Shown here: positions 4,523 to 30,567 of the stretch, one piece after another
Numbering within the stretch: the stretch's first letter is position 1
How the letters are laid out: every line of letters begins with the position of its first letter
Source of the DNA: a virus
DNA length: 30,567 bases
IMG/VR virus record: IMGVR_UViG_3300029989_000116
Span: 1-30,567 of that record
Strand: one strand, 5' to 3'
Made by a program: the position numbers and the translations under genes
Notes under the pieces: generated by a model
Told to the model about the DNA's origin: nothing
Seen by the model: the letters and a program-made list of their open reading frames with translations, nothing else
Database searches by the model: none

Positions 4523-4684
4523 CTAAAATTCTATGGTATCGATCTCTGCATTTGAGTATGCATAATCGACTTCGCCTGTACCTGGTGGAACTTCATCCAA
4601 TACATTATTAATGAGTTCCTGGATTGTAAGTTCCTGTTCACCATCAGGTTGGGCACGGTTGACTATTTTTAATGTTCGTGCCAT
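4523..4684 (-). CDS. Small 53-aa tail-region protein
   Basis: A short gene in the gap between a fibre gene and a 106-aa gene. It reads MARTLKIVNRAQ..., continues with an acidic helix (ELTIQELINNVLDEV), and ends SNAEIDTIEF. GGAGGG lies just before the ATG, and its stop codon overlaps the AGGAGG of the fibre gene. The C-terminal NAEID pattern matches NADID at the end of that fibre, which suggests a common assembly or registration motif. Function unknown; probably a minor tail component. Confidence 0.75.
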   Translation of the reverse strand: MARTLKIVNRAQPDGEQELTIQELINNVLDEVPPGTGEVDYAYSNAEIDTIEF

Positions 4685-4694
4685 AATGCCCTCC

Positions 4695-5015
4695 TTATAG
4701 ACCGCCCCAACTTTCTGTTGCGAAACGTCTCCATGTGTTTGTTAAAACACAGATATAGATATAGCCATAATCAAAACAGATCTCACCAACGGTTCCCGGA
4801 TCAAAGGAATTTTCAATGGTCTTAAAAGGAATAATCGGAGGACTTAATTCAAGTTGATTGAATGCATCAACAATGGCCAGGATTGTTTCAGAGTTTTTGT
4901 CACCCTGAGTAACGAGTAGATTATGAACTGCGTTCCATTTTTCGGCTGAGATCTTTTCGCCAGCTTTCATATCTTCGGCGGATCTTATAAAGTTAGGAAT
5001 ATATGTGATAGACAT
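4695..5015 (-). CDS. Small hypothetical tail protein
   Basis: A 106-aa protein with an N-terminal part rich in charged and aliphatic residues (RSAEDMKAGEKISAEKWNAVHNLL). That pattern recurs at the start of small phage baseplate or fibre-attachment proteins. A C-terminal beta stretch follows with TVGEICFDYGYIYIC and WRRFATESW. AGGAGG precedes the start. It lies directly downstream of the 1106-aa tail protein and upstream of the fibres, so a linking role is plausible. The family is not recognised. Confidence 0.7.
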   Translation of the reverse strand: MSITYIPNFIRSAEDMKAGEKISAEKWNAVHNLLVTQGDKNSETILAIVDAFNQLELSPPIIPFKTIENSFDPGTVGEICFDYGYIYICVLTNTWRRFATESWGGL

Positions 5016-5024
5016 TACGACCTC

Positions 5025-8000
5025 CTATCTTAGGTACATTGTTCGATGTACCCAGGTATAACTCATGATTGTATAATCAGTTTGATTTCTGGAAATGATT
5101 TTAAATCTTGGAGAGTAACCTTTACCACCAACCGGCATACGCAATTTCCAAAGACTGAGTTCGGGGAACAATGACGCATCAAGTCCCCAAGTATTTAATC
5201 GAACTTCAGAATCAACATGTAGTTCGGGTTGGTAAACGGGATTAGGTGTAATATATAGTAGACCATATTTGGGGTCATCGGGGTCTGTTATTTGTTCTAC
5301 AACATATTCGTACATCCCCATCTTTTCTACGTCGTCTACAGTAAAGGACATACTGAAATCAAGTGGGGAGCCTCCAAGATTGTTTATAAATATCTGCAAT
5401 TCCCGATATCTCTTTTTATGCTCTTGGTTATATTCCCTGTTTCCGGTATCTAGAAACTGCCAATTCTGGAATGTAATCCCATCTTCTACGTCTTGAACAG
5501 ATGCTTCAATGGTACTGGATAGGGATTTGGCAATTCTGCCTAACTGTTCGATTTTCTCCGGAAGTAACATATCCGTTAGGTTGTCTGCACATTGAATGGT
5601 AATATTATTCGGAACATAATAATCATGTTTGGTAAACGGATTATATTTGAAAAATTGAATACATCTTCCTGTAACAGTGCCTCCTATGGATTCATCTAAT
5701 ACAAATGTTTTAATGACAGGAGCATCATTATCTGGAAGGTCGTAATCAAAGATAAATTGATATTGATTTCCTCTAACCCATTTAATTAGTAAATCATCAC
5801 CATTTCTTGTGGTATCTCGATACTCATCGCCTTGAATTGAGTTGATGATATATGTACGATCTAGGATCTTGAGTACTGTTCCGGAAGTGATAGGCGCAGA
5901 TAAATTATATCTGAATGTCCTATCTTTTAAAGGCCACACTGTTTTACCGGAAGTAACATTTACCCAGTAGCCTTCAACTTCTTTTTCAAGTTGCCAGGAC
6001 TCGGTAAGGGCCATATCTTTATTTACAAGATCTTGATAACGAATACCATAGGTATCATCTTTTTCCACTGGAATAACGATTCGTCTATCTGGGTTGAAAA
6101 TGTATATGATACGGTTATGTGTTGCGGAATATTCTATTCCATCGGAGTATGTATAGACTCTTGCACCAGGATTAGCAAGATCGGGTCGAGAATAACGAAG
6201 TCGTTCTATGCCTCGGACATCTATTGTGCTTGTTCGTAAAATCATTTCATCTACAACTTTTTCATCAGAACCATCTACGTTAGTTGTAACCAGTTCTGTA
6301 AAGGTTTGAACTTCCAGGTTGTCAAAGAATGTAGAAGCCATCAACTCACCTTTTTGTGTAGCGTTATGTTTATAAGGTTTAATCAAATCTTGTCCTTCAT
6401 AAACATATATTTTCCAAGTTCTAGAAACATAGTTGTATTGAAGGTCGATATGGATAAAACGTTCTTCGTATTTATAAACGTAAACATTATGGATATCTTC
6501 GTAATCCAAATAATTGTAATACGTTGCAAGTCTAAGAGACTCACTTAGATTTTGTTCTTTCAAAGCGGGGTATATCTGATCCAGATATTCGAAGACACGC
6601 TCTTGGAAATTATCCAGGAAATCTGTAATGGGTATAGATACGGGAGCCATGGTTAATTCACCTGTCATAGATATGGCTTTGGGAACCACCATATAATAGT
6701 AATTACCGGATTTGAAGAATACCATATTCTTAACCGGTTGAATTAAATGTCGATCCCATGGATCAATTGATAAATTATCTTGGACAATTGCTTTGTTCCA
6801 AGTCATACCATCTGGATTTGCTGTAATCATTACGATTTGTTTTGTAGTGAATACAAGCAATTTGCCCATATACTCTACTGCATGAATTACAGGAAAATCG
6901 AAGTTAATTGCGTTAGTAGGGTACGGGAAGTAACCAGGGTCATTTAAATCGCTCAGGAAGAGTATTTTGGGGTCTCTGGGTACTCCATAAATGTACAGTC
7001 GATTACGCCAGTAACCTAAACCAGTCGCTGTCTTCAGATCATAGTTAATGATTTCTGTATTCTCAAGAGACTTTTCAACAACTCTGTCCAGGAAAAATCC
7101 AACGAGTGTGGACGCTGTTACGGCAATCGCAAACGAATGCCCCGATCGGGTAAAGTAATCGACGCCCACATGATCGTCGGATCCAGGAGAAATTTGTTTA
7201 TATATCTCGGCACGAATCATGATATCTTTCGATGGAAAGACTAGTGCTTTTTCCACAATGGGTAAGTCTGAACCATCGGCTCGACCAGTCATATCTATAT
7301 ATTGCGCATGAAATTCATTCCAACTGACGTCGGCTTGTTCACGCCACAATAGTTTAACTAACCATTTGTCATCACTAGGAATTGCGGTATAGTTTAAACG
7401 AACCTTATAAGACTTGTTCTTTCTGGGGTAAAGTTCGATATGCTCTGCTGCAACTCTGGTATCATACAGTAGTATTCCATTACAATCAATTTCAGTTACA
7501 GTAGAATCAACTTTGTTTACAAAAGTTTCAGGGTTATCCAATAACATATTCAAACCGTATGTTGCAGCTTCAGAGGCGTTGGGTTGCTTAATAGTGATTG
7601 GAGTCAATTCATATTGTCCTGATGTTTCGTCATACTTTGTTTTATATATGCAGATATTTTTATCAGTCAGTTCTGTTTTATCCTTCGTTAAGAAATAATA
7701 GGAACTACCAAAACCCCAACAACCGATTAACTCCGCTATGGATTCATTATCGCCCATGCCTAAGTGTTCTGAAATCTGAATAGGCACATTATGAATTTTA
7801 GCTTCAACCGGCTTATTAAATAAACAACCAGCTTGCACAGGATGATCGATATCTAATGTGTTCAGCATTGTGTACCCCAGTGAGATATTATCTTCTGGGA
7901 TATCTTTGCGTACGCTCATTTTAAATGACTGAGCATCTCGTGCGTTAGAATTTAAAGCATCAGCACCAGATGCTACATAAAGATGTCCTGTATTATCTTC

Positions 8001-16901: not shown

Positions 16902-17567
16902 ATGAAATTAATTCAAATCGTTAGAGTAAACGGAAATGCTCATGTAATTCCTGTAACAATTCCAGCCAAGGAAAAGCCTGTTGACTACCAATCAGTATTG
17001 TTCACTCACCCAGAGCTGGACAAGACAACTAATCAGTTCACTAACTATCTTGAAGAAGAAGCTAAGCTTACTGGCTTATCTACAGACTCAATGACATTCT
17101 GGGAAACAGGATACCTCAAATCTAACATATCAGATGAGATTGTACCAAGAAAAGAATTGGAAAGGAAATTGTTGGATACAGACTCTGGATTCTATAGTGA
17201 GGAGTTAACACACGCTTGGCGTTTGTTCTTAATGCAGAACCCAAGTAACATGATGCATTTCTTTGCTCCAAACTGGAACAGATGCACATGCGTCAAACCG
17301 GCTGTATGGCACAGTCAAGCTTTTTGTCCTATATGCGGAGCTGCAAACTTTCACTATGAAGGATATGTTGCAACCTATCATGGAAAATTGATAACTACAC
17401 AAGACATTGTAGCCTTTAGCATTCCGGCTGAAGACTATGAACTACTGGAAGAAGTAACTGAGGAATACCTCGCCAGTGAACATCGTATGTTTGATACAAT
17501 ATCAGATGATCAGATAGCAGATCAGGATACAGTCATAAAGATTGTATTCAATAACAACTCTTACTAA
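16902..17567 (+). CDS. Zinc-binding hypothetical protein
   Basis: A 221-aa protein with GAAAGGAG upstream. The N-terminal 130 residues are mixed helix and strand with no known motif. Around residues 127-145 there is a Cys cluster, CTC followed by FCPICGAANFH, which is a zinc ribbon-like site. The C-terminal part is acidic. It ends the first rightward transcription unit just before a clear terminator. Function unknown; the zinc site suggests nucleic acid or protein binding. Confidence 0.75.
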   Translation: MKLIQIVRVNGNAHVIPVTIPAKEKPVDYQSVLFTHPELDKTTNQFTNYLEEEAKLTGLSTDSMTFWETGYLKSNISDEIVPRKELERKLLDTDSGFYSEELTHAWRLFLMQNPSNMMHFFAPNWNRCTCVKPAVWHSQAFCPICGAANFHYEGYVATYHGKLITTQDIVAFSIPAEDYELLEEVTEEYLASEHRMFDTISDDQIADQDTVIKIVFNNNSY

Positions 17568-22889: not shown

Positions 22890-23120
22890 ATGATCCAAGT
22901 TACTGTCGGTACAAACACCGAGAAAAAGACCATTACGGTCAATCCAAGTAAGACACTGAAAGAAGTGTTGGTCTCGGAACACATTGACTTCGCTAAAGGC
23001 GATGTATATCTTGATGGAGAAAAACTGACTGCTGAGAAAATCAACAAGACTTTCACAGACGCTGGTATCACTTCAGATTGTTACCTCATCAGCGTAGTCA
23101 AAGCTAACGGCGGTTTCTAG
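22890..23120 (+). CDS. Ubiquitin-fold modifier ending Gly-Gly-Phe (PRTRC protein C-like)
   Basis: A 76-aa protein with the expected beta-grasp pattern. It has two N-terminal strands (MIQVTVGTNTEKKTITV), a helix (KTLKEVLVSEHI), a strand pair (GDVYLDGEKL) and a final strand (CYLISVVKANGGF). Gly74-Gly75 precede a single Phe76, so removal of one residue would expose the Gly-Gly end used in adenylation and conjugation. It resembles the PRTRC protein C family. The genes for a JAMM peptidase and a ThiF/E1 enzyme lie downstream, which supports a modifier role. AGAAAGGAGC precedes the start, and a terminator follows directly, so it can be made in excess over the enzymes. Confidence 0.85.
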   Translation: MIQVTVGTNTEKKTITVNPSKTLKEVLVSEHIDFAKGDVYLDGEKLTAEKINKTFTDAGITSDCYLISVVKANGGF

Positions 23121-23143
23121 ATCGTCGCAGCGCATTAACAAAT

Positions 23144-23170
23144 AAGCCCTGACAACAGTTGGGGCTTTTT
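23144..23170 (+). terminator. Rho-independent terminator after the ubiquitin-like gene
   Basis: AAGCCC (23144-23149) pairs with GGGCTT (23162-23167), followed by a T-run to 23170. It separates the highly expressed first two genes from the tRNA-like element and the enzyme genes. Confidence 0.82.
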
Positions 23171-23172
23171 AT

Positions 23173-23243
23173 GCCAGTTTAGCTCAAGGTAGAGCACCTA
23201 CGAAGACGTAGGATTATATCAGTTCGATAGCTGATAACTGGCC
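23173..23243 (+). ncRNA. tRNA-like element with shortened anticodon loop
   Basis: A near-complete cloverleaf. The acceptor stem is GCCAGTT/AACTGGC, 7 perfect pairs. The D arm is GCTC/GAGC with loop AAGGTA, the anticodon stem CCTAC/GTAGG with a 6-nt loop GAAGAC, and the T arm ATCAG/CTGAT with TTCGATAG. A normal anticodon loop has 7 nt with U at position 33; here the loop is one short and has no U, and the T loop is one long. It may therefore be a tRNA mimic, a degenerate tRNA, or a processing signal rather than a decoding tRNA. It directly follows the terminator. Confidence 0.6.
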
Positions 23244-23298
23244 CAACACAGGTTGGCAACACCCCTGTCATATGAAATTGTTGCATCGCTCAATACAG

Positions 23299-23387
23299 CT
23301 ACACCCAGTATGGTACCGGCAGACTTTATGGATATCCATATTGCCTAAAGACACAGATAAAATTAGCCGCTGAGTTTCTGGGTGTAG
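23299..23387 (+). ncRNA. Structured leader RNA upstream of the 615-aa gene
   Basis: A 10-bp perfect inverted repeat, CTACACCCAG (23299-23308) and CTGGGTGTAG (23378-23387), closes an 89-nt domain. Inside is the 14-bp perfect palindrome TATGGATATCCATA (23327-23340) flanked by GGC/GCC. The closing helix ends about 30 bases before the start codon of the 615-aa gene. No T-run follows. It may be a cis-regulatory RNA or a stable small RNA; no known riboswitch class is recognised. Confidence 0.55.
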
Positions 23388-23417
23388 TATTTATTTTTAT
23401 TTGAAAGGAGCAAACCA

Positions 23418-25265
23418 ATGAGTATTTTTCCAACATATAAAGAAGCCACATTTGGAGATCGAAATGAACGTTCCACTAAACTACTAACACTTCAGAAATT
23501 AATCCCAGGAACAGAAAGAAAATTATCTGTTCAATTAAGAGGCTCAACCAATAACAATATGTTATATGATCTGAGCACAGTTATAGAACTTATAAAAACT
23601 ATTGCAGCTCTGTTGACTAAGCCAAGTAGCAATAACAGAATGATCTTTGACATTGATAGACATCTTGTAGACCGTAATGAAAAAAGGATTCCATTCACAA
23701 CCTTTAACTATGAAACCAATGACGATCTTGCTAGAATTAGAATCAGACCCAACACATCAGACCAATCCATAGATGGGATTACTTTACAAGATTTAGAGTT
23801 TACTGAGGAATATGGTAGCCGACGAAACATCAAAGAACTGACCTCATTGAATGCACTCCTAAAAACAAATGATAAACATGCTGTACGAGTTTTCACTATG
23901 AATCAACATATTGAAATCTATTCAAACGTTTTGACATGGGAAATTATTTATACTGCATTAACCTTTCCAATGATAAAAAATCTTGATGCAAATGAAGCTA
24001 AGAACTTCCCAGAAATCAAAGACATTCTAAGCTACTTAGCAATGGGAAAAATTCCTCTAGCTGAAGCAAAACTGAAAGAGATTTTATCTGGGGATCGTCT
24101 CAAACAATATTGTGTGCTCCAAGTCAAAAATCAACTATATCAAAATAGTGACGCAGTTGAAAAGAGACACGTAGAGTCAATCAATATGTATGAAAATGAG
24201 GCTTCGAACGCATACACATCATACATTCGTTCATTACAGAATATTGAAAATGAAAAAGTCGCATTAGAAGCTGCAAGAGCACAATGCAGCGATAAAGATA
24301 CAACTGAAGAAATCATCAACTTCTTGATGAAAAACAAATACATTAAATACATTCTACCTATGCCTAATGAACCGTACACCAACAACGATGCTTGGAAATA
24401 CCAAATCATTTTATTAATTAACTCACCATTGACTGATTTTGATGATGCTGCATATCGTAGAACAATCATAAGTACACTCAACAGTAAACTTCCCGAGAAC
24501 CACAGCAATGACCTCATCAGAACTTTTATGCTTATGGCTTTCGATGCAGTCTTCCAAAAACAAACATATAGAGCCTGGACTCATGCTGCAATTAAAATGG
24601 ACACAGCTACATATGCTGTAGAAAACCTTATTGGCTCAGGAATAATCAATAATCCTATAGAAGGTTTCCCACAAAAAAGTGAATGGCAATTTGGTTTACC
24701 ACAACCACATATTTCCAAACACAGTTGCTGGGGCAGCTACCGCGAACAAATTACAAAATGGTTACGTTCTCCAGATTACCTTGGTGTATTTAATCAAATT
24801 GTACAAGCAACTACAAACATCAACTTCACTGACTCAACTGTTGCCAGAACGCTAGTAGGTACTTGGTTAGATGAACCTTATAAAGTCGCTTTCGAAAACA
24901 TGAAAGATGGTACTTTTGTAAGTCTGATAGATATGATTAAAAACATTGTTCCAGTTGATCTTCTAGAAAGTTTACGTCCTTCATATGAACGACATGATGA
25001 TACATATGATCGTCTGCTTAGTAAGATATTTGAACCAAAAGCTGAAGCCCCAATGTGGGACTTAGATTTAACTACTATCACTGACGTTGATCCTATCATG
25101 CAAACAATTGTAGATGGGGAAATCACACGAATAACAGACAATGTACTGGGTACTGAATTTGGAATCCAGTTCCGACAAACTACACAACCTGGACACGACG
25201 ATGCCGTAAATGCTTTAGCCTTTGCCTTTGACAATATCCAAGGCAGACCAAACAATCACGAATAA
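23418..25265 (+). CDS. 615-aa protein of the ubiquitin-like cassette, possible E2
   Basis: A large protein with GAAAGGAGC upstream. The N-terminal 240 residues are mixed alpha/beta. About 245-295 is a charged coiled-coil-like helix, and about 300-615 is a second mixed domain. In that domain residues 430-439 read P-H-I-S-K-H-S-C-W-G, with Cys437. A Pro-His...Cys-x-Gly arrangement of this kind marks the catalytic cysteine in many prokaryotic E2-like (UBC-fold) domains. Placed between ubiquitin-like gene and JAMM/E1 genes, it is the best candidate for the E2 or ligase of the system, or for a PRTRC F/B-type component. The overall family is not recognised and the E2 reading is inference. Confidence 0.65.
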   Translation: MSIFPTYKEATFGDRNERSTKLLTLQKLIPGTERKLSVQLRGSTNNNMLYDLSTVIELIKTIAALLTKPSSNNRMIFDIDRHLVDRNEKRIPFTTFNYETNDDLARIRIRPNTSDQSIDGITLQDLEFTEEYGSRRNIKELTSLNALLKTNDKHAVRVFTMNQHIEIYSNVLTWEIIYTALTFPMIKNLDANEAKNFPEIKDILSYLAMGKIPLAEAKLKEILSGDRLKQYCVLQVKNQLYQNSDAVEKRHVESINMYENEASNAYTSYIRSLQNIENEKVALEAARAQCSDKDTTEEIINFLMKNKYIKYILPMPNEPYTNNDAWKYQIILLINSPLTDFDDAAYRRTIISTLNSKLPENHSNDLIRTFMLMAFDAVFQKQTYRAWTHAAIKMDTATYAVENLIGSGIINNPIEGFPQKSEWQFGLPQPHISKHSCWGSYREQITKWLRSPDYLGVFNQIVQATTNINFTDSTVARTLVGTWLDEPYKVAFENMKDGTFVSLIDMIKNIVPVDLLESLRPSYERHDDTYDRLLSKIFEPKAEAPMWDLDLTTITDVDPIMQTIVDGEITRITDNVLGTEFGIQFRQTTQPGHDDAVNALAFAFDNIQGRPNNHE

Positions 25266-25280
25266 TGAAAGGAGCACATT

Positions 25281-26087
25281 ATGAAATTAATAACCTTTTC
25301 CAGCAAACAGAAAAAGGAAATAATCAAACGTATGACGAACGACATTCAAAACGCAAAGAATGTTAAAGACATCGAGGATTATAAACTTCGTCTGTTCAGC
25401 AACTTAGACAAAATCATTGCACCCACCATTTTATACAGCCCAAAAGCATGGCTTAAAATGTGTGAATTAATCGAAGATTGTACTGTTGAAATTCAGTGGC
25501 ACGGAGTCGTATCCAGAAATGAAGAAACCAATACATTCTACGTTGAGGACATTTTAGTTTTCCATCAGATTGTATCCGGTGCAGGCTGCGATGTTGATGA
25601 AGAGGAATATGCAAAGTTTCTCATGGCACTAATGATGGATCCAAATTTCGATTATAATAAACTTCGATACCACGGTCACAGTCATGTCAACATGCAAGTT
25701 TACTCATCCGGCGTGGATGATAAATACCAGTCAGACATGCTACCCAATATCCAAGATTATTATATCTTCGCAATTGGAAACAAAAAAGGCGCACTTGTAC
25801 ATTTTGTATATGATACCAAAAACAACCGAATCTTCGAACCTAATGATGTCCAGCAAGGCTTATCATACGATGGCGTAACTCTGGATAAAACCTGGGGCAA
25901 AGATATGGTTGCAAAATATACCAAATCACCAACACCAATCGTTAAATCCTACAGCGCCGCATATCCGACAAATCCATTATTACCTGGAACAGCAACTGCT
26001 GAAGCAGACCCATTTGAATTTGTAGGATTCCCAAAGGAGCAAATTGACGGACAAATAGATTGGAGAAGTATATATGGACTTGAATAA
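25281..26087 (+). CDS. JAMM/MPN+ metallopeptidase (PRTRC protein A-like)
   Basis: A 268-aa protein with an intact JAMM zinc site: Glu70 in VEIQWHG, then HSH at 133-135, seven residues, Ser143, two residues and Asp146, in HGHSHVNMQVYSSGVD. JAMM enzymes cut after the C-terminal glycine of ubiquitin-like proteins or isopeptide bonds. Here the likely substrate is the 76-aa modifier with its extra Phe, or its conjugates. GAAAGGAGC precedes the start, and the end overlaps the ThiF gene by 14 bases, so the two enzymes are co-translated. The N-terminal 60 residues are a charged helix; the C-terminal tail is Pro-rich. Confidence 0.85.
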   Translation: MKLITFSSKQKKEIIKRMTNDIQNAKNVKDIEDYKLRLFSNLDKIIAPTILYSPKAWLKMCELIEDCTVEIQWHGVVSRNEETNTFYVEDILVFHQIVSGAGCDVDEEEYAKFLMALMMDPNFDYNKLRYHGHSHVNMQVYSSGVDDKYQSDMLPNIQDYYIFAIGNKKGALVHFVYDTKNNRIFEPNDVQQGLSYDGVTLDKTWGKDMVAKYTKSPTPIVKSYSAAYPTNPLLPGTATAEADPFEFVGFPKEQIDGQIDWRSIYGLE

Positions 26088-26736
26088 AAGTAGGGAATAT
26101 TTTGACCCTGCTAAAATTACTAAATCTTGCCACATAATCGGTTGTGGGGCGATAGGCTCTAGTCTTGCTGAGCTCCTGGCAAGACAAGGAGTTTCGCTGA
26201 TTCATCTTTGGGATTATGATGTTGTGGAATCTCACAATCTTGTAAACCAAATGTACCGAGTCAACCAAATCAATAAACCAAAAACTGAGGCACTAGCTGA
26301 GTTGATTCTGGAAATAAATCCAGATGCTGAATTAGTATTACATGGTAAATATACCATGCAAAATTTAAGCGGCTTCGTGTTTATTGCTACCGATTCTATA
26401 GCCAGTCGTAGAACTGTTGTAGAACAAAACTGGAACAGTAAAAACATCGAAGTCATGTTTGATTTCAGAATGACCTTACTTGAAGGACAACATTATGCCT
26501 ACAAATGGGACACAGAAATCAACAGACAAAAACTACTTGATTCTATGGACTTTACTGACGATGAAGCAAAAACTAACAACCCTGTTAGCGCGTGTGGATT
26601 TGATTTGTCGGTAGCACCAACAGTAAGAGCAATTACAGCTCTCGGTGTTTCCAACTTCATGAGTTATGTTAATACAGGCTCCATGAAGAAACTAATCTTA
26701 TCTGCACCTTTTTCATTCGTAGTAGATTCTTATTAG
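26074..26736 (+). CDS. ThiF/E1-like activating enzyme
   Basis: A 220-aa protein with the E1 Rossmann nucleotide-binding loop GCGAIG at 23-28. The acidic turn LWDYDVVESHN follows with Asp47 and Asp49, then NQMYR and KTEAL (Lys70), and FIATDS at 103-108, all in the order of the ThiF/MoeB/E1 adenylation domain. Cys174 in SACGF is the likely acceptor of the activated modifier. It is short for the superfamily and lacks the Cys-x2-Cys zinc pairs of MoeB/ThiF, as in PRTRC-type ThiF proteins. It overlaps the JAMM gene. Expected reaction: ATP-dependent adenylation, then thioester or transfer, of the Gly-Gly end of the 76-aa modifier. Confidence 0.86.
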   Translation: MDLNKSREYFDPAKITKSCHIIGCGAIGSSLAELLARQGVSLIHLWDYDVVESHNLVNQMYRVNQINKPKTEALAELILEINPDAELVLHGKYTMQNLSGFVFIATDSIASRRTVVEQNWNSKNIEVMFDFRMTLLEGQHYAYKWDTEINRQKLLDSMDFTDDEAKTNNPVSACGFDLSVAPTVRAITALGVSNFMSYVNTGSMKKLILSAPFSFVVDSY

Positions 26737-26745
26737 ATAAACTTC

Positions 26746-27155
26746 TAACAAAATGGATACCCTAACAGGGCATTACGTTTAAAACTAATGTATTTCATAG
26801 TCACGGAAGAGGAACCCGCAGGACCTTCCTGGAAGAGACCGGAGCTCAGCTTCTTCACGGGCTACGACCGTTGCAATTTCAACAATCACCCCAGCAGTCG
26901 CCGACTCTGCCGTCATCCGGATTAGTTCAGACGACTTCCAGAAGGCTGCATCTTCGACAAAGTAGATCTTCGTTAACATATAACACTGAACAAATCTCAT
27001 GTCAACCAATTTCTACAAGACTACAAACGTTGAAATTCCAACACCCAGTAACAACTTTTATGAGTACCAAACGCCTTCAAGTCAATAATTTGGCTTACAC
27101 GTTTAGTAACTGATCAAGAGTTCATCGCAACACATCTCTATTTTAGATTTTGTTA
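26746..27155 (+). ncRNA. Retron-like ncRNA 1 (msr-msd), upstream of the reverse transcriptase
   Basis: a1 is TAACAAAAT (26746-26754) and a2 is ATTTTGTTA (27147-27155), 9 perfect pairs. G26755, directly after a1, is the candidate branching residue. The msr-like core 26757-26795 has the hairpins CCCTAACAGGG and CATTA...TAATG. The following 350-nt part is unusually long for an msd and more GC-rich at 26810-26960. It contains GTTGCAATTTCAAC (26870-26883) able to pair with GTTGAAATTCCAAC (27029-27042) at 13 of 14 positions. a2 runs straight into the AAAAGGAG of the RT gene. The class follows from architecture; the transcript is not shown. Confidence 0.75.
26757..26795 (+). repeat. 39-nt msr-like core, copy 1
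   Basis: 37 of 39 bases are identical to 28476-28514. Both copies keep the hairpin CCCT-aac-AGGG and a second hairpin closed by CATTA/TAATG; the two differences fall in the bulge and loop of the second hairpin. Confidence 0.9.
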
Positions 27156-27168
27156 AAAGGAGAACATT

Positions 27169-28338
27169 ATGTATATTACATTTTATCAGCCAGTAAAACA
27201 TACACCCATCCCCGCATCAGAATTATCACCAGATGATTTTCTGCGTATGTTGGAAGGCGAACATGTGGAAATCCCACAAGAAATCCCACAAGAAATCGTA
27301 CCAAGAAAAAAGATAACAGTTGATGTTGAATCTTCAAAACTACTCGACATCACAATTAAAAACAACATTGCCGGAAAGTTCTTAAACATGGCACGAATTG
27401 ATTTTGAACCTGGTACAGATGACCAACGTTATTCTACGTTTCAAATTCCCAAGAAATCTGACCCAACAAAAATGAGATCCATCCAGGCGCCAGATGAAAT
27501 GTTAAAAGCACAACAAAAAGCATTTGCAGTATTTCTGGAAACTTACTGCAGATGCCTTTGTCACGAAGCTGCTCACGCCTATGTAAAAGGTAGAGGAACA
27601 ACAACTGCTTTAAAACTTCATCAAGCTAATGAATCAAAATGGTTTATTAAAATAGACTTAAAAGATTTCTTTCCATCATTCACCTATGAAAGCATAATGG
27701 CTGGATTAAATAACATCTATCCATTTGGAATGCTTTTACCGGAGTCCACAGCTTATCACAACCTAGAAAACAATATCAAAGGTTGCTTATACAAGAATCA
27801 TCTACCACAAGGCACACCTGTCAGCCCAATGCTTACAAACATTCTAATGATGCCTTTTGATAATGCTATCCAAACCAAATTCTCGAACTTTAACAAAAAA
27901 CATTTCGTGTACACTAGATATGCAGATGATATTCTGCTATCATGTAAATACGACTTCAATCCCAGCGAAGTTGTCAGACATATCAGACAAATCTTCAAAG
28001 CTGGACACGCACCATTTACAATCAATAATGCAAAGACCAGATATGGGAGTAGCTCTGGTAGAAATTGGAACCTAGGTATGATGCTAAACAAAGACAATCG
28101 TATCACCATAGGACATGAAAAAAATCAAAAAATGAGAGCAATGATATTCCAATTTATCCAAGCAAACAAAGAACAAGTTACCACACCCCTAGACGAAGCA
28201 CAACGCGTCCAAGGATTGCTAAGTTATTACAAAAGTATCGATCCGGTTTATACCAATCTTGTAATAGAACGGTATGAGCGTAAATTTCGAACTAACTTAG
28301 ATGATCTAATGCGTCGTGTACTTTCACAAACCTTATAA
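27169..28338 (+). CDS. Retron-type reverse transcriptase
   Basis: A 389-aa RNA-dependent DNA polymerase. The catalytic aspartates are Asp163 in FIKIDLKDFF and Asp253-Asp254 in YADD; QGTPVSP and NWNLGMML are the other palm motifs. QGxxxSP, not the SQ of diversity-generating RTs, argues for a retron-like enzyme. The retron signatures are divergent: ALKLH where NAxxH is usual and NLG where VTG is usual. Residues 1-75 hold an added region with a repeat QEIPQEI. It lies between two ncRNAs that share a core and is expected to prime on a 2'-OH of G26755 and G28473. AAAAGGAG before the ATG touches a2 of ncRNA 1. Confidence 0.9.
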   Translation: MYITFYQPVKHTPIPASELSPDDFLRMLEGEHVEIPQEIPQEIVPRKKITVDVESSKLLDITIKNNIAGKFLNMARIDFEPGTDDQRYSTFQIPKKSDPTKMRSIQAPDEMLKAQQKAFAVFLETYCRCLCHEAAHAYVKGRGTTTALKLHQANESKWFIKIDLKDFFPSFTYESIMAGLNNIYPFGMLLPESTAYHNLENNIKGCLYKNHLPQGTPVSPMLTNILMMPFDNAIQTKFSNFNKKHFVYTRYADDILLSCKYDFNPSEVVRHIRQIFKAGHAPFTINNAKTRYGSSSGRNWNLGMMLNKDNRITIGHEKNQKMRAMIFQFIQANKEQVTTPLDEAQRVQGLLSYYKSIDPVYTNLVIERYERKFRTNLDDLMRRVLSQTL

Positions 28339-28460
28339 GTTGTGAGACCAGTCCATAACGGACATGTTCCAGGAATCCTGAACATCGTATCAACCACCTA
28401 CAAATCTACGAAAGCGGCGTAAACAAATCCCCGAATTGTTTCCACCCCTAAAGTCACAAC
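28339..28460 (+). ncRNA. Structured RNA element between RT stop codon and ncRNA 2
   Basis: GTTGTGA (28339-28345), immediately after the stop codon, pairs with TCACAAC (28454-28460). Within it are two neat hairpins: GTCC/GGAC (28351-28363) and ATGTTC...GAACAT (28364-28385), the latter extended by AGG/CCT. It ends two bases before ncRNA 2. It lacks the 39-nt core, so it is not simply a third retron RNA; it may be a 3' UTR fold or a processing signal. Confidence 0.5.
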
Positions 28461-28463
28461 GAT

Positions 28464-28675
28464 TAACACTTAGCAATACCCTAACAGGGCATTAAGTTAA
28501 AAACTAATGTATTTTAATTCCAAACATCGTCGTGCACGTTTACTGTAACGGGATCCCTACGCAAAACATATTAAACCGTTCAGGTTCATTACATTCACCT
28601 GAATGCTTTAATATTTTCGCTACCGGATCCCTCTACAGCAAAGTCCACCACCAATCTATGATTAAGTAAGTGTTA
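28464..28675 (+). ncRNA. Retron-like ncRNA 2 (msr-msd), downstream of the reverse transcriptase
   Basis: a1 is TAACACTTA (28464-28472) and a2 TAAGTGTTA (28667-28675), 9 perfect pairs. G28473 follows a1 in the context TTAGC, the usual retron branching context. The msr-like core is 28476-28514. The msd-like part is a long hairpin: GGGATCC (28550-28556) with GGATCCC (28625-28631), ATATTAAA (28568-28575) with TTTAATAT (28607-28614), and TTCAGGT (28579-28585) with ACCTGAA (28597-28603), around an 11-nt loop. Size and layout match classic retron RNAs. a2 leads into the ribosome site of the AbrB-like gene. Confidence 0.8.
28476..28514 (+). repeat. 39-nt msr-like core, copy 2
   Basis: 37 of 39 bases match copy 1 at 26757-26795, while sequence on either side has diverged except for the base-paired ends. 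This pattern fits selection for recognition by one RT. Confidence 0.9.
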
Positions 28676-28690
28676 GAAAAGGAGAAAATT

Positions 28691-28945
28691 ATGAACAAAG
28701 CATTTGATTATCTAGGTAGAGTTACAATACCTAAAGAATTTCGAGATCGACTTGGAATTAGTCCAGAGGATAAAGTCAGAGTAACCTGCGCTAATGGGAA
28801 AATAATCTTAGAACCTGTGAAAAACTTTTGTGCGCTATGCGGAACCTCTGACAGCCTCATCTACACACTATACGACAAAAGAAATATCAACTTATGCGAC
28901 GAATGTTTGAAAGTGGTCCAAAACTATGTTGCAAACAGAAGGTGA
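28691..28945 (+). CDS. AbrB-like DNA-binding protein with zinc finger
   Basis: An 84-aa protein. Residues 1-45 are the swapped-hairpin AbrB/SpoVT DNA-binding domain: YLGRVTIPKEFRDRLGI, then DKVRVTCANGKIILEPV. Residues 51-75 contain CALC and CDEC, a zinc ribbon found at the C-terminus of many Bacillota AbrB-type regulators. The start ATG at 28691 has AAAAGGAG upstream, directly after a2 of ncRNA 2, in the same arrangement as the RT gene. It may regulate the module or bind msDNA; that is inference. Confidence 0.82.
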   Translation: MNKAFDYLGRVTIPKEFRDRLGISPEDKVRVTCANGKIILEPVKNFCALCGTSDSLIYTLYDKRNINLCDECLKVVQNYVANRR

Positions 28946-29327
28946 TCGATGGGAAGAAATTCGCTTCTATTATTTCTGTCTGCATATGTATCACATTCGA
29001 AACAATATGATGGATCTGATGTACGCAATTGAGACTATCTCTCAAATAGGAGACATTTCAGTCCAACGTATAAAAGCAATAGCCGGAAGTACTATCAGCG
29101 AAATTGGTAATACCCCAACCAAAGATGAAATCCTATATCTCGCCAGCGTAAACAAAGCGTCACCAAAAGATATCAAACGAGTATTTGGATTCACATACCG
29201 ACAAATGAACTATAATGTAAATGCGCATATTGAACAATATTACACACCAAAGAACAACCAAAAAGACCTCGCAACAATTAAACAATTTATGAAAATTGTA
29301 GATCAGTTTAAAGGAGGAATAATATGA
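28926..29327 (+). CDS. Hypothetical protein, possible helix-turn-helix
   Basis: A 133-aa protein overlapping the AbrB-like gene by 20 bases, with only a weak ribosome site (GAAAGTGG), so translation is probably coupled. The N-terminal half is helical with aromatic and Met residues (FYYFCLHMYHIRNNMMDLMY). The C-terminal half has LASVNKASPKDIKRVFGFTYRQMNYNV, which could be a helix-turn-helix. Function unknown. Confidence 0.66.
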   Translation: MLQTEGDRWEEIRFYYFCLHMYHIRNNMMDLMYAIETISQIGDISVQRIKAIAGSTISEIGNTPTKDEILYLASVNKASPKDIKRVFGFTYRQMNYNVNAHIEQYYTPKNNQKDLATIKQFMKIVDQFKGGII

Positions 29328-29746
29328 CCCAAGAACAATTAACGTACCTCTGGGGAGAATTTAAATCTCTCGGAGCAGACGCACTAGGTTATAGTCATTA
29401 CGACTTAGCCACTAAAACAGACGAACATAGTCAAGTACTCTGGAAGGAATTTTTAATGCATCCAGATGTAGTAGACTATATTATCTCAGAAATGACAATC
29501 ATAAGAAACGCAGCCATAAATCAAATGATTCAATCCTCACCAGAATCAAGATCAGTCGGACAATCTCAATTGCTCAACTCTCTTCAGAAATACGGTGAAG
29601 AAGAATCAAAACGAGAAGGCCCTGCGTTTATCTATTGTCATGTACCCCTAAACTCTGAACAAAAATATGCGAAAACTGTACGAGAATGCGACGCCTCTGG
29701 AATTGAAATTACAAACGAGGGAGTGTGCATTATAGATGAATCTTAG
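29324..29746 (+). CDS. Hypothetical protein
   Basis: A 140-aa protein with AAAGGAGG upstream and an ATGA overlap with the previous gene. It is mainly helical, with WKEFLMHPDVVDYIISEM and a Ser/Gln-rich centre; the C-terminus is a small beta segment with CDASGIEITNEGVCIIDES. It overlaps the start of the helicase gene by 11 bases. Not recognised; its coupling to a helicase suggests a replication or recombination partner. Confidence 0.68.
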   Translation: MTQEQLTYLWGEFKSLGADALGYSHYDLATKTDEHSQVLWKEFLMHPDVVDYIISEMTIIRNAAINQMIQSSPESRSVGQSQLLNSLQKYGEEESKREGPAFIYCHVPLNSEQKYAKTVRECDASGIEITNEGVCIIDES

Positions 29747-30567
29747 ACCATACCAAGAAGAAGATGCAAAAATTCTAGCATCAAAACCTTGTATGGCATG
29801 TTTCAACGAACAACGTACAGGAAAAACTCCAACAGCACTCGCAACAGTTAAACTTAAAGGACTTGAAGACCAGAAGATTTTAATCGTAACCACAGCTTCT
29901 ACAATTTACCAGTGGACCAAAGAATATGAACGTTGGCTCGGTAAACCTTGTGTCGCTTGTGCTGGGTTAAAACCACAGAAGTTAAAGGCCATCGAAAAAT
30001 GGACTCACGGCCTTGTTATTTCTATAGACAGTTTTAAGACAACTGCCTCTTCAGACGGGTTAATAAAACCTATCCTAGAAAGACATCCGGCTATGATCAT
30101 TTTAGATGAAGCACACCGGATTAAATCTCCAAAATCTCTTAATGCGAAAGCACTCTTCAAAACAAACAAAATCCCACATCGATTAGCCCTCACAGCAACA
30201 CCTGCTGCAGGAAAACCTTATGATGTATTCTCCATTCTCAAATTCTTGGAGCCAGACAAATGGACATCATTTTGGAATTTCCAAAACGAATATTTTGAAC
30301 GCAAAGTTGAAAAAATAACACGTTTCTATAATGGTATTCGCACCCTCGCAGAGTACAGTACTTTTGAAGGATTCTTACCTGGAAAAGATATTGAACTGCA
30401 AGAAACTCTGGAACAAATATCCATACAACGAAAACGTAAGGACGTAATGCCTTGGTTGCCGGATAAATTTTATGAACGAGTACCTCTGAAACCAACAGTT
30501 GAACAAGCGCGATATTTAGCAGAATTGAACAAGACTTTTACCACAGAGCATATCGATGCCAATGGTG
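29736..30567 (+). CDS. SNF2-type DEAH helicase (partial, runs off the window)
   Basis: The first 277 residues of a superfamily 2 ATPase. Visible motifs: MNLRPYQEEDA (Q-motif-like start), Walker A EQRTGKT (residues 25-31), LIVTTAS (motif Ia), DEAH at 124-127 followed by RIKSPKS as in SNF2 proteins, and LALTATPA (motif III). The second RecA domain lies beyond the window. Phage SNF2 helicases act in replication or recombination. The start overlaps the preceding gene; GAGGGAG lies 9-15 bases upstream. Confidence 0.88.
   Translation, partial: MNLRPYQEEDAKILASKPCMACFNEQRTGKTPTALATVKLKGLEDQKILIVTTASTIYQWTKEYERWLGKPCVACAGLKPQKLKAIEKWTHGLVISIDSFKTTASSDGLIKPILERHPAMIILDEAHRIKSPKSLNAKALFKTNKIPHRLALTATPAAGKPYDVFSILKFLEPDKWTSFWNFQNEYFERKVEKITRFYNGIRTLAEYSTFEGFLPGKDIELQETLEQISIQRKRKDVMPWLPDKFYERVPLKPTVEQARYLAELNKTFTTEHIDANG

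Follow-up and report, generated by a model that had tools for sequence, protein, structure and literature searches.

One reverse transcriptase flanked by several retron-like RNAs: a probable multi-template array in phages of gut Clostridia

Can one reverse transcriptase (RT) be served in nature by more than one template RNA? The question is raised by a phage locus in which a single RT gene lies between two RNAs of the same plan. The locus belongs to an IMG/VR virus record that was analysed as a whole (30,567 bases, hereafter the window), and for which an original prediction had proposed one RT with two retron-like RNAs sharing an msr and carrying unrelated msds. This arrangement holds in the window and recurs in a large family, and the reading that we favour with considerable confidence is that of a phage-borne retron-like system, in which a single RT works on an array of template RNAs and should make a separate msDNA from each. 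The RNAs and the RT of the window are the following:

26742..27159, + strand, upstream retron-like RNA (418 nt, long msd; a1 26742-26754, a2 27147-27159)
26755, + strand, presumed branching G of the upstream RNA, directly 3' of a1 (GGATA), read from the sequence
26760..26790, + strand, msr hairpins of the upstream RNA, read from the sequence; the plan recurs in relatives, and hp1 and hp2 covary in the family
26760-26770, + strand, upstream hp1, CCCT AAC AGGG
26771-26790, + strand, upstream hp2, CATTACGTTTAAAACTAATG
27169..28338, + strand, retron-type reverse transcriptase (389 aa, YADD); no other RT is present in the record
28464..28675, + strand, downstream retron-like RNA (212 nt, hairpin msd; a1 28464-28472, a2 28667-28675)
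28473, + strand, presumed branching G of the downstream RNA, read from the sequence, at a family-like position relative to a1
28479..28509, + strand, msr hairpins of the downstream RNA (hp1 28479-28489, hp2 28490-28509), placed from the 37/39 core repeat
28543..28638, + strand, long msd hairpin of the downstream RNA, CTGTAACGGGATCCC...GGATCCCTCTACAG, from the MFE fold

Both window copies follow the retron plan of an a1/a2 helix, a G directly after a1 (26755 and 28473, as had been claimed), two msr hairpins and an msd. The 39-nt core at 26757-26795 and 28476-28514, said to be identical at 37 of 39 positions on both sides of the single RT gene, is indeed so (95%), and local alignment of the two flanks gave a same-strand score of 68, far above the 23 obtained on the reverse strand and the values of 26 or less obtained in 10 shuffles. 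The a1/a2 arms are TAACAAAAT/ATTTTGTTA upstream (26746-26754/27147-27155) and TAACACTTA/TAAGTGTTA downstream (28464-28472/28667-28675), all positions predicted for core, helices and G being correct, and both helices are present in MFE folds. Compared with shuffled sequences, the downstream RNA with its long msd hairpin reached a z of -6.2 and the upstream one a moderate -2.7, the downstream msd folded alone gave -11.8, and a search of 24000-30567 with the structural plan returned the upstream window RNA as its best match. Each helix, when searched for freely over ~400 nt, stayed within chance (22 and 20.5 versus control 95th percentiles of 23 and 22), so that the window alone leaves the pairing open; the helices are made credible by their position adjoining the core and by the conservation of the plan in relatives. 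In this regard, the evidence for the compensatory change initially read from the two a1/a2 helices comes from relatives, where most copies retain the pairing with differing sequences; the window by itself, with its two paralogous copies, is thin ground for it. A search of Rfam gave nothing above threshold.

The RT of the window matches RVT_1 with 86.7 bits and, as best PADLOC model, RT_II-A with 180 bits; solved retron RTs in the PDB match it as well, and the NCBIfam model for the retron St85 RT gives 194 bits, below its cut-off of 235. Two motifs are unusual. Region Y reads NLG and not VTG, in the window as in the family, with the G kept, and region X reads TALKLH in the window, with A and H kept, and DAxKRH in the family, and not NAxxH. 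Some motif substitutions are tolerated in validated retrons (PMC6868368). In a tree of the phage RTs together with 30 bacterial RTs recovered by the same search, the phage family forms one side of a branch with an SH-aLRT of 99, and the window RT groups with those of L006, L007, L008, L009, L011 and L014 (support 95).

How general the arrangement is was revealed by relatives. In GenBank the nearest record is MT835544, obtained from human faeces, whose RT is 35% identical to that of the window. It has the same neighbours and two retron-like RNAs, one on each side of the RT, of which the downstream one folds with a z of -6.0. A single-sequence RT query of viral and genome contigs found no relatives, but alignment queries did recover them, with at least 365 RT relatives (80 kept) and 39 ThiF relatives in IMG/VR. 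A scan of viral contigs for the exact core had as sole match an unrelated coding sequence, in L001, and a stricter msr pattern over viral contigs hit two contigs, both already in the set. Roughly half of the loci have an msr-like core common to both flanks of the RT and on the same strand, and the scores between both cores reached 40-146 in dozens of loci versus 21-33 in controls.

Since MAFFT alone misaligned hp1, a first msr covariance model (R1) was built from a subset of 13 sequences with a hand-set structure, and it found 118 matches among 91 non-redundant loci, none of them on the strand opposite to the RT. Rebuilt from these matches, the model (R2) found 166 in 91 related phage loci. 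Of these, 164 share the strand of the RT, and the remaining two, in L039, overlap plus-strand matches; such modelling on homologous phages had been advanced as a check of the original prediction, which it bears out. Applied to loci kept out of training, R2 gave 31 matches; all fell in the 12 loci of the family that come from Clostridia MAGs, whereas 68 ordinary retron-RT loci had none. A third model (R3), trained on the window's own subclade with the window left out, gave three to four matches per subclade locus. The window copies themselves score weakly with R2 (18.7 bits upstream, 12.5 bits downstream) and with R3 (13.6 and 13.5 bits), and both cores are among the top three matches of the window with either model; the best R2 match of the window (19.5 bits) is found at 17184-17255, inside an ORF, probably by chance. 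The check on homologues that could have refuted the original prediction came out in its favour: they conserve the structure of the core and the a1/a2 pairing, although the literal 39-nt sequence is replaced by family-specific versions. A coding repeat was rejected as an explanation of the core. That the repeats would reflect chance or faulty assembly has a negligible probability: a perfect 372-bp repeat in L082 could be an assembly effect, but core scores far above shuffles, a strand bias of 164:2 and an independent set of matches with clean negatives refute a chance repeat for the family.

Whole phage records gave the copy number. A match at E 0.1 or better is present in 49 of 50, two or more copies in 44 of 50 (maximum eight), clustered near the RT, and a single RT is encoded in 40 of them, a second one lying far off in the other ten. 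This further RT, perhaps of a diversity-generating retroelement (DGR), is located ~50-65 kb away on the opposite strand in related phages G004, G005, G012, G013, G024, G025, G029, G035, G041 and G045. Judging from MAG titles, the hosts are Oscillospiraceae, Lachnospiraceae and other Clostridia. The family is one of phages of gut Clostridia where one RT is accompanied by two to eight RNAs, a wider range than the pair that had been proposed, and that the window does hold, with two kinds of msd and with msd turnover. The largest array, in L026, counts eight RNAs, each about 280-310 nt long, and an RNase HI gene is interspersed with them (L026:6540-7007). Such a gene is also found inside or beside the array in L018, L059, L071 and L095, although near the array in 5 of 103 loci only; RNase HI is a plausible partner for msDNA processing. 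One studied retron is reported to require host RNase H1 for termination (PMC8989520).

A detailed view of the family RNAs (median length 306 nt) shows that the msr stem-loops are conserved by covariation. In an alignment fitted to the model, 98% of the cells over hp1 and hp2 are paired, with 538 two-sided changes versus ~60 in slid controls, and each of the six pairs predicted for hp2 already shows two-sided changes in the unfitted MAFFT alignment. The a1/a2 helix of 149 copies has a mean score of 20.4, compared with 14.0 when 3' arms were swapped between loci; 64% of the copies exceed the control 95th percentile and about a third do not. The copies of L040 keep the pairing with different arms, ATATCTGTAAT/ATTACAGATAT and TCATCTGTAAT/ATTACAGATGA. 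In 88 of the 95 strong copies the conserved G comes immediately after the end of a1, and the context of this presumed priming G is UAAUG or UGG, not AGC. Between the end of the upstream a2 and the start codon of the RT the median distance is 20 nt.

The hp2 sequence appears to connect these RNAs to their RT. Its identity is 0.815 within a genome and 0.507 between genomes, with a permutation maximum of 0.568, and its similarity tracks that of the RT (Mantel r 0.43, 0 of 500 permutations). Because hp2 is 82% identical within and 51% between genomes, the copies all seem to be templates for one and the same RT. The choice of the cognate msr in known retrons is made by region Y of the enzyme (PMC6868368). 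Recent duplication could explain part of the sharing within genomes, although these very copies have unrelated msds.

It might instead be supposed that only the upstream RNA is a template, with the downstream copies binding the RT through their msr as regulators or decoys, or simply decaying after duplication. Classic retrons have a single upstream RNA (PMC6868368), and the downstream copies stand at variable distances from the RT, 23 of 57 starting within 100 nt of its stop codon. We regard this as improbable, given that a1/a2, the G and the two hairpins are preserved in downstream copies, that the downstream msd of the window is the better hairpin of the two, and that eight copies are maintained in L026. 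Lower still is the likelihood that the RNAs act without reverse transcription as regulatory leaders of the genes that follow them, the RT and an AbrB-like gene, as a ribosome-binding site just after each window a2 (27155-27170 and 28677-28692) could suggest. Copies 2 and 3 of L026 lie back to back with no intervening gene, in the loci searched the RNA family accompanies no other RT clade, and hp2 follows RT identity, all of which argue against leaders. The AbrB/MazE-like protein directly behind the downstream RNA (28688-28945) carries CxxC...CxxC in its C-terminal half, and a relative of it lies near the array in L014.

The msd behaves differently from the msr. Among 121 copies there is no detectable msd similarity within genomes, except for a perfect duplicate in L082, and between genomes there are three short matches only. 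In L082 the whole ncRNA is present as a perfect 372-bp duplication around the RT (L082:4203-4574 and 5952-6324), which may be a recent duplication or an assembly effect. Sister copies in L131, L123 and L017 have nearly the same 75-nt msr, past which their sequences abruptly cease to match. Moreover, L081 and L085, from phages that are 95-96% identical, have the msr and the 3' flank in common and unrelated msds of ~150 nt, the wholesale replacement spanning about 4555-4710. Turnover is not constant, since the pair L097/L054 retains its msd. Two kinds of msd are found, long and weakly folded as in the upstream copy of the window, or a short hairpin as in the downstream copy. Hairpin msds with a z below -4 amount to about a dozen copies, several hairpin copies showing a G-N-A-G/A-A-T-T/C signature after a1, and most of the msds are weakly folded, many upstream ones hardly at all, as opposed to the msd hairpins of classic retrons.

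Variable sequence adjoining an RT in a phage is also what is seen in DGRs, and the msd could in principle be the template for a variable gene in such an element or in another template/target system. We rejected this reading, which has in our view a slight probability, below that of leaders: the RT is of retron type, the msds match nothing else in the loci barring duplicate contigs, self-complementary hairpins and one 28-nt match, and two of the five msds of L131 were tested against its host MAG without any match elsewhere. No pair of template repeat and variable copy was found in the loci searched or in that MAG.

Upstream of the RT lies a set of genes that accompanies it nearly everywhere:

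22890..23120, + strand, 76-aa ubiquitin-like protein ending ...KANGGF (relatives in 65/103 loci, aligned)
23418..25265, + strand, 615-aa protein, cassette member (relatives in 57/103 loci; no Pfam match)
25281..26087, + strand, JAB-peptidase-like gene (assigned from the motif GHSHVN...SGVD in an alignment; no Pfam match)
26074..26736, + strand, ThiF/E1-like gene upstream of the RT (Pfam ThiF, 73 bits)

The 76-aa protein has a weak ubiquitin-like Pfam match (E 0.012) and, like several of its relatives, terminates in GG followed by a single residue. Neither Pfam nor NCBIfam suggested an informative name for the JAB-like or the 615-aa protein. Of the 92 family loci whose sequence extends far enough upstream, 89 have JAB-like and ThiF genes directly before the RT, whereas none of 57 control retron loci does. 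The whole stretch (22890-26736) makes up a ubiquitin-like/615-aa/JAB-like/ThiF-E1 phage cassette, which nearly always adjoins this RT clade. None of the linked genes was identified as a known retron effector.

Altogether, a mechanism can be proposed for the template array. Each RNA would be ordered a1-G-hp1-hp2-msd-a2, and the RT would recognise the common msr, hp2 above all, start at the G positioned by the a1/a2 helix and then copy the msd. We infer that msDNA is synthesised from each RNA as a separate branched molecule and, for the window, that its RT makes two msDNAs as originally claimed, one a long weakly folded product and the other a short hairpin. The RT would keep the msr constant while the msd diverges or gets replaced. 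The msDNAs might act in conflict together with the adjoining ubiquitin-like/JAB/E1 cassette. A role in conflict or counter-defence, against host defences or rival phages, is suggested by the rapid turnover of the msd, the constant handle and the phage setting; we offer it as a guess, and a rather doubtful one. Slightly better placed, but still tentative, is the broader picture of a natural array with exchangeable payloads, where one RT would yield several msDNAs per infected cell from msds swapped between fixed msr and a2 ends, in partnership with a cassette for ubiquitin-like conjugation and deconjugation. If the array is real, a natural multi-template enzyme would show specificity (hp2) separated from payload (msd), would offer arrays ready for use in multiplexed editing and ssDNA production, and would raise the question of why phages produce several different msDNAs. 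Moreover, the ubiquitin-like/JAB/E1 cassette that is almost always adjacent suggests that retrons may have a partner yet to be explored.

Compared with bacterial retrons whose RTs are of type II-A or St85-like, the phage system is alike in the homology of the RT and in the a1/a2 helix, the G right after a1, the msr stem-loops and the msd. It differs in having two to eight RNAs per RT, both upstream and downstream, whereas known retrons have one (a usual trait of retrons, if not a strictly defining one), in the turnover of the msd, in the X and Y motifs of the RT, and in the ubiquitin-like/JAB/E1 cassette in place of a known toxin effector. As judged from sequence, the system would work like a retron with several templates and appears to be a novel retron-like variant in the form of a natural array of several RNAs; formal membership of the retrons is withheld for now because two RT motifs and the context of the G differ from those of classic retrons. 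Classic retrons on phages, such as those of Klebsiella phage 4LV2017, the Pseudomonas Pf phages and Vibrio phage PE001, likewise carry a retron RT, which is 24-29% identical to that of the window in a comparison made by RT alone. In the literature searched, largely outside subscription journals, we found no natural multi-RNA retron, only engineered arrays. Man-made retron arrays were reportedly described by Gonzalez-Delgado et al. 2024 (Nat Chem Biol 20:1482), as cited in PMC12405507. Like these constructs, the phage loci combine one RT with several msr-msd units, but here the array is natural and conserved in phages.
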